DNA of 64,000 nucleotides from Lindgomyces ingoldianus (Eukaryota > Ascomycota > Dothideomycetes > Pleosporales > Lindgomycetaceae), in assembly GCF_010093535.1 (NCBI RefSeq), contig NW_022985169.1, forward strand, positions 351,660 through 415,659, given 5' to 3'. Both the position numbers and the translations under genes were made by a program. Of this stretch, positions 2,028 through 53,215 are shown one piece after another. Position 1 is the first letter of the stretch. Each line of letters begins with the position of its first letter. A model generated the notes under the pieces. The model did no database searches. It was not told the DNA's origin and worked only from the letters and a program-made list of their open reading frames with translations.

Positions 2028-2364
2028 CAGTTTTGAATTTCCTGTCCGGCTTTGTCATATATTTCGGTTTCTCATTATGTGGGCTGGGACAGTTTACCTC
2101 TAGGAGCGAATCTTAGGTCTGATGCGCTTCCTTGACTCACTTCGTTGTCGCTCATCTACTTTAATATCTCGAATACCGGTGATCATAAGCCAATGGAAGC
2201 TCCTGCTGCATGTGGGTACCGCAAATTTTCTCATTAGCTGCTTCCTCACCGCCCACTCCTTAACATCACCACCGTTTCTCTCAAAAGATTTAAAAAATCC
2301 TTTTGCTCTTTAGTTTATATACAAAATAATTTAAATATTTCCTATCAACCAATCAGAATCAAAT
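2028..2364. other. intergenic upstream of tRNA
   Basis: No gene seen. The stretch just before the tRNA (about 2285-2345) is AT-rich (TTTATATAC, AATTTAAATA), as is common upstream of fungal Pol III genes. Confidence 0.4.
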
Positions 2365-2395
2365 GGTGAGATGGCCGAGTTGGTTATGGCGCCAG

Positions 2396-2445
2396 GGATG
2401 TCTCAGTCACGTGATGTTCTGAATCCACAAGCTAATACCTCCCAG
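2396..2445 (+). other. intron-like insertion in tRNA anticodon stem
   Basis: Fifty bases separate the 5' anticodon strand from the anticodon loop. CCAGG flanks both ends (2392-2396 and 2442-2446), so the boundary can slide by up to five bases. In the register ending with AG the element runs GGATGT...GCTAATACCTCCCAG. That is a branch-like CTAAT 11 bases before an AG acceptor, with a donor one base away from GTATGT (GG in place of GT). Confidence 0.7.
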
Positions 2446-2452
2446 GTTAAGG

Positions 2453-2469
2453 TCGCACCTTAGCAGATT
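2453..2469 (+). other. canonical tRNA intron (position 37/38)
   Basis: Seventeen bases sit one nucleotide 3' of the anticodon, the normal place for eukaryotic tRNA introns cut by the SEN endonuclease. The intron contains CCTT (2458-2461), complementary to anticodon plus base 37 (AAGG), as expected for the pre-tRNA fold. It could be shifted by one T. Confidence 0.8.
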
Positions 2470-2498
2470 TCCTGGTCACGTAAGTGGCGTGGGTTCGA

Positions 2499-2546
2499 GT
2501 GAGTTCGCTGTCACTGATTTCATACAGTCGTTCTAATTCAGTTCAG
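2499..2546 (+). other. GT-AG intron-like insertion in tRNA T-loop
   Basis: Forty-eight bases begin GTGAGT and end TTCAG, with TTCTAAT 10-16 bases before the end, so donor, branch and acceptor all match fungal spliceosomal signals. Exact removal joins GGTTCGA to GTCCCAC, restoring T-loop TTCGAGT and box B consensus GGTTCGANTCC. The insertion lies between tRNA positions 58 and 59. Confidence 0.75.
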
Positions 2547-2563
2547 GTCCCACTCTCATCAGA

Positions 2564-2579
2564 TTTTTTTTTTTTTTTT
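2564..2579 (+). terminator. RNA polymerase III terminator
   Basis: Sixteen consecutive T's start two bases after the discriminator base of the tRNA-Leu gene; Pol III needs only four or five. Confidence 0.85.
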
Positions 2580-43889: not shown

Positions 43890-45585
43890 CTACTCCATCT
43901 CGATAGTGCCAGGAGGCTTGCTGGTAACTAGTAGGCGGTAATTAGTTTCTCTCTCTTCACTTAGGGAATAGATGATGGGCGAACTTACTGTCATAGACAA
44001 CCCGACAAACGCCCTCAACCTCATTAACAATCCTGCGACTAACCTTCTTCAAGAAAGCACCATCAAACGGATACCAATCCGCCGTCATGAAATCACTCGT
44101 CTCGACCGCCCGAAGCGCGATAACTTGATCATGAACTCTCTTATCGCCCATAACACCCACAGCCTTCACCGGCAACAGCGCCGCAAATGCTTGGCTGATC
44201 TTCCTGTACAATCCCGCCGCCCTAATCTCCTCAATGAAGATATAGTCCGCTTCCCGCGCAATGCGGACTTGTTCCGGAGTGACTTCGCCCAGGATACGGA
44301 TAGCAATACCCGGACCCGGGAACGGGTGTCGCCAGACCAGATCTTCAGGGATGCCGAGATTCGTGCCGAGTTCGCGGACCTCGTCTTTGAAGAGCTCGCG
44401 TAGGGGCTCGATGAGTTTGAGGTGCATACCTTCGAGGAGGCCGCCGACGTTGTGGTGGGTTTTGATGGTTGCGGATGGGCCTTTGAAAGAGATGCTTTCG
44501 ATGACGTCTGGGTAGAGGGTGCCTTGGAGCAGCCATTCGATTTCACCAGCGCGGGAGGAGCCTTGGGATTCGGCAGCAATTTTTTTGGCTGTTTCTTGGA
44601 ATACTTCGATGAAGGTGTTGCCGATGATTTTGCGTTTCTTTTCGGGGTCGTCGGTGACGCCCTTTAGTCGGCCGAGGAAACGATCGGAGGCATCCACGAC
44701 GGTGAGATTGATGCCGAGGCCTTTCGTCAGCGTCTCTTTGACCTGCTTTGCCTCGTCCAGCCTCAACACGCCGTTGTCGACTAGCACAGCGTGGAAGCGC
44801 TCGCCAATGGCCTCTTGCATCAACTTCGCCGCGACGGTCGAATCGACACCCCCACTGACAGCTCCAATGACTTGTCCCTTGTCGCCAACCAAAGCTCTGA
44901 TCCTCGCAAGCTCTTGATCCACAAACTTGCCCATAGTCCAGTCCGTCTTAGCCTGGCAGATGTCGACAGCAAAGTTCTTCAGCAACTCCTTGCCCCTTGG
45001 GGTATGCGTGACTTCAGGATGGAACTGAATGCCATACAACATCTTATGTCTATGCGCTATGCCGGCGAATGGGGCATTACTGGTCGTGGCAGTCGTGACA
45101 AAGTCATCTGGCAAATGACTCAGCTTGTCGCCATGGCTCATCCACACCTCCATATCACCCTCCAGCCCCTTGAACAGCTTATCCACATGGCCGCCCATCT
45201 CCGCATCGCCGTGACTCTCCACTTTCAAATATGCATGTCCATACTCCCTCTTCTCGCCTGCCAGCACATTCTTCCCGAAATGCCACGCGATCTCCTGCAG
45301 CCCGTAACATATCCCCAACATGGGGACGCCGAGGGAAAACACGGCGGGGTCGACGTGCGGGGCATCGTCCCAGTATACGGAATATGGACCGCCGGAGAGA
45401 ATGACGCCCTTAGGGGTCCAGGATAGCTCGGCGAGCTTTTGTGTGCACGGCAGCATTTCGGAGTAGACATTGAGTTCGCGAAGACGGCGGGTGATGAGGT
45501 GGGAGTATTGGGAGCCGAAGTCGAGGACGAGGATGGTGTCGAAGGTTTTGTTGGGTGGGATGGGATCAATGGCGTTGGTTGCCAT
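43890..45585 (-). CDS. gua1: GMP synthase (glutamine-hydrolysing) (544 aa)
   Basis: Two minus-strand exons: 45585-43989 and 43927-43890. The last exon supplies [12 protein letters not shown], the conserved C-terminus. The frame stays open to 45831, but ATG 45585 ([20 protein letters not shown]) matches fungal orthologues. Domains: class I glutamine amidotransferase with nucleophile Cys93 in GICYGLQ and His189/Glu191 in FHPEVTH; ATP pyrophosphatase with P-loop SGGVDS at 244-249; C-terminal dimerisation domain. It converts XMP to GMP using glutamine and ATP, the last step of cytosolic guanine nucleotide synthesis. It is divergent with bcp1, start codons 227 bp apart. Confidence 0.96.
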
Positions 45586-45812
45586 CGTGAAAGCGGGTGC
45601 ACGATAGGTGCAATTGGGGAAGGAGAGGGCACAGAGGGGAGGGTACAGCGGGGAGAGAGTGGGAAGCTGGGAGGGAAGCGCGAGGGAAGGACTGGATGGA
45701 AGAAGGAAGGAAATTTTTTGGTGGGGGGGACTGCAGGGGTCTGTGGGCCACGCTCCCAAAATTTCATGTTCTGCTTCGGACGTCCAGCCTTGAATTGTGC
45801 ACGCAGCCCACA
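45586..45812. promoter_or_regulatory. shared gua1-bcp1 promoter region
   Basis: Only 227 bp separate two divergent ATGs. The gua1-proximal side is strongly purine-rich on the plus strand (GGGAGAGAGTGGGAAG), i.e. a pyrimidine-rich leader for gua1. No TATA box seen, as usual for housekeeping genes. Confidence 0.6.
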
Positions 45813-46853
45813 ATGCCGAAACGAAAACCAAGAAAAGACCCAGAAGACCTGCCAGATGCGCCGGAAGGCAAGGGGAAGAGGAAGAATGAGGACTCGGATA
45901 GCGACGAGGTAGGCACGACCCTCGCGACCCTCACAGCCCCGCCATGCACCCAGTCTTCGATCCTAGAGCTTATGATGGATGCGCTTAGGATATGGATATG
46001 GTGAATGTCGACTTCGAATGGTTTGACCCCCAGCCTGCCGTCGACTTCCACGGCCTCAAAACCCTCCTGCGCCAGCTCCTTGACGTCGACGCCCAGCTCT
46101 TCGACCTCTCTGCGCTTGCCGACCTCATCCTCTCGCAGCCGTTACTCGGCAGCACCGTGAAGGTCGATGGCAATGAAAGCGACCCCTACGCCTTCCTCAC
46201 CGTGCTGAATCTCTCAACCCATAAAGTGACTATGCGCCTCTCCCTACCTCTTCTAGCCCGCCCTTTAACACTCCTCGCAGGACAACAAAGTCATAAAAGA
46301 CCTCACCACCTACCTCACCAAAAAAGCATCCTCCACCCCGTCCCTCGCACCCCTGTCTTCCCTCCTCTCCCAGCCCTCTCCCTCCCAAATCGGCCTCATC
46401 CTAACCGAACGCTTCATCAACATGCCCCACGAAACTGTACCACCCATGTACACCATGCTGCTAGAAGAAATCGCGTGGGCGCTGTCGGAAAAAGAACCAT
46501 ATGCCTTCACCCACTATCTCATTCTCTCGAAAACCTACGCCGAGGTCGCTTCGTCGCTGTCGTCGCCCGACCCACCACCACCTAGCAAGAAGAAGAAAGG
46601 AGGGGCAGCAGGAGGAAAGGGTAAGGAGGAAGAGACGTTTTACTTCCACCCGGAAGATGAGGTGTTGCAGAAGTATAGTCTGGGTTGGGGGAGCTTTGAG
46701 TATGATACTGAGGTGGATGAGGGGGCGAGTGACAGCAAGAGGGCATTCCAAGAGCTGGGGGTTAAGCCGAAGGGGCATTTGGTTTTGATTGAGGGGAAGA
46801 GGTTTGAGGAAGCCGTGAATGCAGTTAAGGAGTTCTTGGGCAGTGGGCAGTGA
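45813..46853 (+). CDS. bcp1: BCP1 family protein (301 aa)
   Basis: Three exons: 45813-45908, 45989-46225 and 46281-46853, all phase 0. The N-terminus is basic then acidic ([20 protein letters not shown]), followed by [20 protein letters not shown] across the first junction, the hallmark of BCP1/BCCIP proteins. Downstream are [40 protein letters not shown] and [14 protein letters not shown], in family order. A Lys/Gly-rich insert ([16 protein letters not shown]) interrupts the last third. Yeast Bcp1 acts in nuclear export of Mss4 and as chaperone of ribosomal protein Rpl23; the same nuclear role is inferred here. Confidence 0.93.
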
Positions 46854-51140: not shown

Positions 51141-51688
51141 CGTGGAAGGAGCTTTCCCCGAACTTCGCGCGCAGCCTTGAAGTTGGAGCCGTGTAGAGTT
51201 GAATTGAGGGTGTTTAGATTCTCACAACAGATTAGCTGGAATATATATGGGAGTCCAATACGTTTCGCGATTGGTTTGACGCGGTATTTGCGGGTAGAAA
51301 GGTAAATGTCGTGGGTGAGACGCGTGGGCTGTGGGCGAGGAGGTTCACTTGACCATTCTCACAAAAGTTGAAGTGTTTGCACAGTTGTCAAACTTGTGGC
51401 GCGTGAGCGTCCAGCCACAAGGACTCGATCCGTAAGAATGGTCAGCACCGTCATGGAAGTCTGGCTGGTGTTTCAGGCAATCATCAACACAAACACAATC
51501 CGTATTTCATCGATTAGGACTTCATCATTAAGCAAGAAATATCTCCTCCAGATCCCAGGAGCTCTTCGTTAGCCGACCAAATCCATCCTCAGAAGCATTG
51601 CATTCCTTTGCCCAATGAATTGCGTCTGTGGCGCTTCAGTCATCACCATCAAGACATACACAAAGCTTAGTTGAGGGCAATTGGAACA
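51141..51688. other. divergent intergenic region
   Basis: Promoters of the histone-fold gene (minus) and the carboxypeptidase gene (plus). Nothing else recognised. Confidence 0.4.
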
Positions 51689-53215
51689 ATGAAGTTCTTC
51701 CAGTCCATTTCTCTTCTTTTTGCGGGGTCCCATCTGACGTTCTCGTCTCAAATCCCCCTCCAAGAGTCGACCGAGGAGCAAGAAGTCAACGCATTTCAAG
51801 TCTACCGAAGCCAGTACTCTGAGCATTCAATTCGCATCAAACAGCAACAAAATGAAACCCTCTGCAATGCCCATTCGAAGCAATACACCGGCTGGCTCGA
51901 TGTTGGATCAAAGCATCTCTTCTTCTGGTACTTTGAATCTCAGTCTTCTCCCTCAGAAGACCCACTCCTCCTCTGGCTCACCGGTGGGCCTGGCGGCTCT
52001 TCGATGATTGGAATGCTGCAGGAGATGGGTCCTTGCGTAATCAATGAGCATGGCAATGGCACTAAGTATAACGAATATGGTTGGAGCAGGAACGCGAATC
52101 TCATCTTTGTGGATCAGCCCGCTGGAGTAGGCTTTTCGTATATCGATAAGGGGATGCCTGTTCCTGCGACTAGCTTCACGGCTGCGGAAGATATGCATCA
52201 CTTTCTGCAGCTGTTTGTCAGCGAAGTCTTCCCTGATTTGTTAGGGCGGGACTTCCATATCTCAGGAGAAAGTTATGCAGTAAGATTACCCTAACCACAA
52301 AATTAATCTATCTAATCATACAATCAGGGCCACTACGTCCCAATTCTCGGAGCTCAAATCGTTTCCCAAAACCTCTTGTACCCGCACCGCCCTCAGGTCA
52401 ACTTAGCTTCCATCCTCGTAGGCAACGGCTACGTCTCACCCCTGGACACAGCCTTTGGCTACTGGGAAACCCTCTGCACCACGAACCCCGGCATCAAATC
52501 GCCCATCTTCAATAGCACACGCTGTGACATCATGGCCTCCAATCTCCCCCGCTGCATGAATCTCGCCCAGGTCTGCTACCAGCACCCGGACCCTGCAATC
52601 TGCGCCGCCGCTAGCACAATATGCTGGAACGGCGTAATCTCACATTACGACAGTGAATCCGGCCCCGGCGGTCGCAATCGCTTTGACATCACCACTCCAT
52701 GTAAGACGAAAGACGAACTCTGCTACCCCGAAATCCCACATATCCAGGAATATCTGAACCTACCATGGGTGTGGGAGGCTTTGCAGGTCCCCAAGGCGCT
52801 CCACAACTACTCCATTTTGTCGGAGGAAGTCGCTATTGCTTTCACGCTAACGAACGACGAAGGCATCAGCACACAACCCCAAGTCTTGTATCTCCTTGAA
52901 AATGAAATCGATGTGTTGTTCTACCAGGGGAATCTCGACCTCGCGTGTAATACCGCGGGAAATATACGCTGGGCGAGTAACATGCTGTGGAGTGGACAGC
53001 CGGCGTTTGTAGCGCAGGCGCCGCGTGCATGGAAGGATGGAAAGAGGGATGTAGGGTGGTTTAAGGAGGTTAAGGTGAAGATGGGAGGGGGTGAGAGGGA
53101 GACGACGTTTGCTTTTAGTACGGTGGATGGGGCAGGCCATTTGGTGCCGTATGATAAACCGAAGGAGGCTTTTGCGTTGGTGTCAAGGTGGCTGGGGGAT
53201 AGAAGCTTTGCTTAG
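51689..53215 (+). CDS. serine carboxypeptidase, peptidase family S10 (492 aa)
   Basis: Two exons: 51689-52279 and 52328-53215, with a 48-nt phase-0 intron splitting the active-site motif. Residues 1-20 are a signal peptide ([20 protein letters not shown]). Family motifs: [13 protein letters not shown] (oxyanion region), GESYA-GHYVP with Ser195, GNLDLACNT with Asp401, and GAGHLVPYD with His468, which complete the catalytic triad. Several N-glycosylation sites and about ten cysteines fit a secreted or vacuolar enzyme. It removes C-terminal amino acids from peptides at acid pH. It is closer in type to CPY/CPVL-like enzymes than to KEX1, since there is no C-terminal membrane anchor. Confidence 0.93.

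Follow-up and report, generated by a model that had tools for sequence, protein, structure and literature searches.

Spliceosomal-type inserts in a tRNA-Leu(AAG) gene and in other tRNA genes of Lindgomyces ingoldianus

The 64,000-nucleotide stretch of the Lindgomyces ingoldianus genome analysed here (the window, on contig C8) contains a tRNA-Leu(AAG) gene interrupted by three separate segments, and the question is what these segments are and which machinery could remove them from the transcript. In the textbook account, tRNA splicing by a protein endonuclease and a ligase is separate from mRNA splicing by the spliceosome. The coordinates and lengths given for the segments in the preliminary description (50, 17 and 48 bases, within 2365..2561) proved exact. 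The raw window yields no tRNA by ARAGORN, and none by Rfam at the gathering threshold; once the 50- and 48-base segments had been deleted by script, ARAGORN called a tRNA-Leu(AAG) with a 17-base intron, and removal of all three inserts leaves the 82-base class II tRNA that had been foreseen. The claimed terminator of 16 T residues is likewise present 3' of the gene (Table 1).

Table 1. Features of the window tRNA-Leu(AAG) gene (window coordinates), followed by the sites of inserts in the interrupted tRNA genes (tRNA numbering of the 12 sites, assigned by hand)
Feature	Position	Strand	Basis or remark
tRNA-Leu(AAG) gene, 197 bases, three inserts	2365..2561	+	sequence, spliced-form tRNA search
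TATATA upstream element, ~45 bases 5' of gene; putative Pol III upstream promoter	2316..2321	+	sequence; function inferred
A box / D arm TGGCCGAGTTGG, not interrupted	2372..2383	+	sequence
Exon 1, 3' end CCAG	2365..2395	+	
Insert 1, 50 bases, tRNA position 30/31, GGATGT...CTAAT...CAG; spliceosomal-type intron without GT start	2396..2445	+	C62 copy has GT-AG intron at same site
Insert 1 branch-site match CTAAT	2432..2436	+	
Exon 2, GTTAAGG, contains anticodon AAG	2446..2452	+	
Insert 2, 17 bases, 37/38, canonical tRNA intron	2453..2469	+	ARAGORN i(40,17)
Exon 3: anticodon stem, variable arm, T stem, TTCGA	2470..2498	+	
GTAAGT within variable arm, possible competing 5' splice site; GAAAGT in C62 copy	2480..2485	+	sequence; function inferred
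Insert 3, 48 bases, T-loop position 58/59 after TTCGA, GTGAGT...CTAAT...TTCAG; spliceosomal-type intron	2499..2546	+	
Insert 3 branch-site match CTAAT	2533..2537	+	
Exon 4, T arm 3' half and acceptor strand	2547..2561	+	
T16 run, presumed Pol III terminator	2564..2579	+	sequence
Gly inserts, C15	19/20 and 61/62		
Gly insert, C7	61/62		
Arg insert	24/25		
Ile-AAT inserts, both copies	25/26		
Leu-AAG inserts, both copies	30/31		
Ser insert	variable arm		
Met insert	45/46		
Asp insert	~52/53		
Inserts of both His genes and Thr	53/54		
Asn insert	54/55		
Leu-TAG insert	55/56		
Inserts of window Leu, Glu, Ile-TAT, Lys and Leu-CAG	58/59		

Insert 2 is an ordinary tRNA intron of the kind cut by tRNA endonuclease; it holds CCTTA, which is complementary to the anticodon region (pairing judged by eye). 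The other two lie away from the canonical 37/38 site, as had been recognised from the start. Judged by its signals, insert 3 is a textbook spliceosomal intron. In insert 1 the A of the CTAAT motif stands ten bases before the CAG end, and GT..AG occurs in none of the six equivalent registers in which the insert can be placed.

The 68.4-Mb genome (99 contigs) was searched using the window gene as query, and one other tRNA-Leu(AAG) gene was found, on contig C62 (locus L002). It bears a 49-base insert, GTAATT...CTAAT...TTCTAG, at the same site as window insert 1, together with a diverged 18-base intron at 37/38; its T loop is unbroken, and thus reveals precisely the sequence split by window insert 3. 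The spliced window and C62 tRNAs are identical at 81 of 82 positions, the sole difference being a T in the window copy and an A in the C62 copy within the loop of the variable arm, a change that retains a GNRA-like loop. The GGATGT with which window insert 1 opens is one base, the second, away from GTATGT, which would be a good 5' splice site, and on the simplest reading of this comparison the insert would formerly have begun with GT and then lost the T; there may also be a sequence error at 2397.

Because insert 1 lacks a GT start, maturation of the window copy is uncertain, and the C62 copy is the likelier of the two to be the working Leu-AAG gene. There is about an even chance that the window copy is decaying, unspliceable at 30/31 and yielding no tRNA, in a family that does have spliceosomal introns, a reading compatible with a spliceosomal explanation for the family as a whole. 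The defective GGATGT, at the place where C62 has GTAATT, speaks for such decay, as does the exonic GTAAGT of the variable arm, which could divert splicing; against it stand the exons, matching C62 but for the one change that preserves the loop, and the T16 run and TATA element, both still in place. Any loss would be very recent. The earlier proposal that the gene is still processed remains plausible for the tRNA family, and is doubtful for the window copy.

Elsewhere in the genome the pattern recurs: 19 interrupted tRNA genes were found, of 15 anticodons, with 21 spliceosomal-type inserts at 12 cloverleaf sites. Leu-AAG, His, Gly-GCC and Ile-AAT are each represented by two such genes, and Leu-CAG, Leu-TAG, Ser-GCT, Thr-TGT, Asn, Asp, Ile-TAT, Glu-TTC, elongator Met, Lys-CTT and Arg-TCT by one. 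In searches that were not exhaustive, every copy found was interrupted for His, Leu-AAG, Leu-CAG, Leu-TAG, Glu-TTC, elongator Met, Thr-TGT, Arg-TCT and Ile-TAT; uninterrupted copies are also present for Gly-GCC, Asp, Lys-CTT, Asn and Ser-GCT, and 34 further tRNA genes (29 + 5) were read as free of such inserts. The Rfam tRNA model contributed 37 matches, from the 63 scored out of 3779 first-look candidates, and more loci came from DNA queries, four D-arm patterns and one pattern combining T loop and splice site. The Rfam pass overlooked, for example, uninterrupted Pro and Val-AAC genes, which the D-arm patterns recovered. These patterns gave 75 hits, 33 of them at known genes, and inspection of the other 42 by eye distinguished six interrupted genes, five uninterrupted genes, four doubtful loci (L077, L089, L107 and L108) and 27 loci that are not tRNA genes. 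The nine hits of the T-loop pattern fell at five tRNA genes (four already known, and Leu-CAG at L121) and at four loci of other kinds. Inserts were initially picked partly by eye, and anticodons were called with ARAGORN or by eye, those of Thr-TGT (Lys according to ARAGORN) and one Ile-AAT (Thr according to ARAGORN) being set by the aligned anticodon loop. The spliced T stem of the Asp gene (L068) has one mismatch, as judged by eye. Genes for Phe, Tyr, Cys, Gln-CTG, Arg-ACG, Gly-TCC and Glu-CTC were not found, sequence queries returning little or nothing, so the tRNA set is incomplete.

Seven loci were put aside as decayed or unclear. L034 (G000:C95:14176), L037 and L069 are truncated or decayed copies of Lys, Ser and initiator Met tRNAs. 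L107 (G000:C1:3081276, minus strand) is a third Ile-AAT gene, with no insert and with a T loop short of two bases, which may reflect decay or imprecise loss of an intron. L077 (C6:146294, minus strand) and L089 (C7:1700304, plus strand) have tRNA-like ends and paired acceptor strands with 70 or more extra bases inside, which no single GT-AG removal resolves convincingly; they are possibly two-intron genes or relics. Automatic splice trials gave no tRNA at L089, at L069 or at L108, the last of the seven, and at L077 each of four constructs gave a different anticodon, a result regarded as untrustworthy. L086, L092, L096 and L104 (on C4, C9, C28 and C70) have near-identical starts, GTTGTATT(G/A)GCGCAGTGGTAC after gattattcgca, and form a repeated tRNA-like family, perhaps a Pol III SINE or a transposon end; L104, one of the D-arm pattern loci inspected, runs into N.

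The inserts carry the signals of mRNA introns. GT..AG is present in 20 of the 21, where shuffled sequences lead one to expect 0.08, the exception being window insert 1, and 17 of them begin with GTNNGT. YTRAY occurs in all 21, its A 9-14 bases from the end, against 2.0 expected from shuffles within 8-16 bases. Lengths range from 48 to 61 bases, with one His insert of 86, and the median is 51. Eight inserts permit only a single register, and all eight are GT..AG; the same ends were seen in none of the 13 ordinary 37/38 introns examined. When spliced, the Gly-GCC genes at C7:109k and on C15 match, at 71 of 71 positions, the Gly-GCC gene at C7:148k, which has no insert. Coding introns of the window, predicted by frame bridging, look alike (lengths of, for example, 48, 52 and 73 bases): the one at 52280-52327, between two Peptidase_S10 segments, has 48 bases, GTAAGA at its start, and a CTAAT whose A is 12 bases from the end. 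This inferred intron belongs to a serine carboxypeptidase (S10) gene (51671-53215, plus strand); the window also contains a cytochrome P450 gene (5557-6879, plus strand) and a GMP synthase gene (43957-45930, minus strand), open through one frame, whose aligned part is 100% identical to a Lindgomyces ingoldianus protein. Short T runs in the inserts (longest, 4) were considered as a mark of selection by Pol III and set aside, since coding-intron candidates, a noisy set of 37, are alike in this respect.

Might removal of intron-like segments create a tRNA from arbitrary DNA? Segments of 45-89 bases with a GT..G start, a branch site and AG were cut, singly or in pairs and on both strands, from 592 overlapping chunks of the window. 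No tRNA appeared in any of 486 constructs across the whole window, nor in 204 single removals; once ARAGORN was run without its intron limit, a single chunk produced hits, and it was the one holding the window tRNA gene. The same automatic removal yielded a tRNA at 17 of the 19 interrupted genes, the two Leu-AAG genes being missed because their 30/31 inserts lack a GTNNG start. In the Gly gene on C15 it cut one of the two inserts and gave a wrong anticodon, and cutting both restores Gly-GCC; Thr-TGT and one Ile-AAT copy were misnamed, and two of the 17 (Ser-GCT and one Ile-AAT) gave some ARAGORN tRNA even unspliced. An assembly artefact or a chance fold, for which the single odd base of insert 1 was the only support found, is scarcely credible given this control and a recurrence in 19 genes over many contigs.

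It is also very improbable that all three inserts are introns of endonuclease type, cut at bulge-helix-bulge motifs in the manner of archaeal and Cyanidioschyzon merolae tRNA introns. Those organisms do carry multiple ectopic tRNA introns, 11-69 bases long (PMC3978253), and insert 2 is itself of endonuclease type. However, a central helix of 4 base pairs between two three-base bulges was found in none of the 21 inserts, in any register or either orientation, in a test confined to the strict form of the motif; the GT-AG ends and branch sites would moreover be left unexplained. The initial comparison with archaeal and algal tRNA introns thus gives way: the two extra inserts look spliceosomal instead, and their like recur in many tRNA genes of the genome. 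From the anatomy of the gene, the splice and branch signals, the exact restoration of tRNAs and the recurrence of the pattern, all directly observed, we infer that RNA is actually spliced at these sites. Inserts 1 and 3 are, we are confident, spliceosomal introns (U2-type, mRNA-like) in a Pol III tRNA gene, part of a genome-wide set, whose pre-tRNA would be spliced by the spliceosome. Points that count against this reading are the missing GT..AG of window insert 1, the lack of an intron in the best U6 copies, the B boxes divided by several inserts, the T-stem mismatch of the Asp gene, the initial choice of inserts partly by eye, and the 34 tRNA genes free of such inserts.

The distribution of the inserts bears on the internal promoter. 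No insert among the 21 lies 5' of the GG that ends the A box, so that the A box precedes every one of them, and several split the B box. In the His and Thr genes the AG of the intron joins TTCRA to give AGTTCRA, a match of 9-10 of 11 positions to the B-box consensus; the genes with inserts at 58/59 retain GGTTCGA, with the rest split off, and score 9 of 11 (the Arg and Leu-CAG inserts were excluded from this comparison). The B box of the Asn gene (L067; G000:C1, minus strand, near 1963966) is split by an insert that itself contains GGTTCAACCCG, which matches the consensus at 10 of 11 positions and is suggestive, though only that, of an intronic B box. Fission yeast U6 introns also hold a B box. 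Of 17 genes, 13 have the letters TATA in the interval 36-60 bases upstream, in flanks that are AT-rich, and all 17 are followed by a run of 5-16 T residues. It would appear that the internal promoter limits where inserts can lie, and that in several genes the AG of an intron, or a motif within it, replaces part of a split B box.

For three of the four same-anticodon pairs of genes with a common site, the two inserts are not clearly similar (Gly-GCC, z 1.4; Ile-AAT, z 0.2; His, z 1.3), and the Leu-AAG pair at 30/31 is weakly alike (z 2.4), so common ancestry of same-site inserts was considered and rejected. The exons of the Leu-AAG copies are nevertheless nearly identical, and those of the Gly-GCC copies fully so. 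From this mismatch the inserts appear to be old rather than recent, or parallel gains, which gives no support to the recent insertion first proposed. A mobile element (an introner or MITE) or SINE-like debris, rather than introns, is a highly unlikely source. Introners do occur in other Dothideomycetes, and window insert 1 is flanked by CCAGG repeats; but each of the 19 inserts searched (those of Arg and Leu-CAG were omitted) had no match elsewhere in the 68-Mb genome within the sensitivity of the search, a target-site duplication is absent in eight of the 21, and the highest z in 171 pairwise comparisons of 19 inserts, 3.5 for Glu with Gly, is near chance for that number. As for spliceosomal introns, the fungal U6 intron adjoins catalytic bases of U6, itself a part of the spliceosome, and reverse splicing has been proposed from that; by analogy, an origin of the tRNA inserts by reverse splicing is possible.

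The scheme that we favour would run as follows. Spliceosomal introns would have come to occupy numerous cloverleaf positions, in numerous tRNA genes of the host; the Pol III pre-tRNA would be spliced by the spliceosome via GT, branch A and AG, the 37/38 intron would be taken out by endonuclease and ligase, and the cloverleaf would fold after both routes. A need for splicing is suggested because all copies found of nine anticodons or isotypes are interrupted. It is rather likely that His, the Leu CUN box, Glu GAA, elongator Met, Thr ACA, Arg AGA and Ile can be read only by way of Pol III transcripts that depend on the spliceosome, and in several cases on the endonuclease as well, so that the spliceosome would be an essential tRNA-processing enzyme; the insert sites would be limited by the promoter. 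A single gene here appears to need both splicing machines and, if this is true, tRNA supply is tied to the spliceosome. The set would offer a natural system for studying the access of the spliceosome to Pol III transcripts and the spread of introns into non-coding genes, and it would explain how tRNAs in such genomes can escape the search programs, as the window gene escapes ARAGORN and Rfam. No description of spliceosomal introns in tRNA genes was found in the open-access literature searched; one may exist elsewhere.

Insert 2 is an instance of the canonical eukaryotic tRNA intron, from which inserts 1 and 3 differ both in site and in having branch-site and 3' splice signals, with a GT in insert 3 as well. 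Several introns per tRNA gene, at sites in the D, anticodon, variable and T arms, are likewise described for C. merolae and archaea in PMC3978253; those introns use a bulge-helix-bulge and the endonuclease, whereas the host inserts lack the strict helix. Among RNAs made by Pol III, fungal U6 and U3 contain spliceosomal introns (for U3, PMC5832005), a precedent that supports a spliceosomal reading of the tRNA inserts. U6 genes of Schizosaccharomyces pombe and other species resemble the tRNA set in having short mRNA-type introns in fungal, non-coding genes transcribed by Pol III, with several independent insertions. U6, however, is a component of the spliceosome and tRNA has no such role, and the host tRNA inserts, unlike those of U6, hit many genes and sites, in transcripts that may also depend on the endonuclease. 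The best U6 copies of the host genome, unlike those of S. pombe, match over their full length within ~100 bases and so have no intron, and Pol III genes are thus not generally interrupted here. Fungal U3 snoRNA genes, as described in PMC5832005, share with the tRNA inserts canonical, closely spaced splice and branch sites, and paralogs within one species may differ in the presence of an intron; the U3 introns described there belong to one gene family and lie almost always in the 5' stem-loop, whereas the inserts described here occupy 12 sites of the tRNA.
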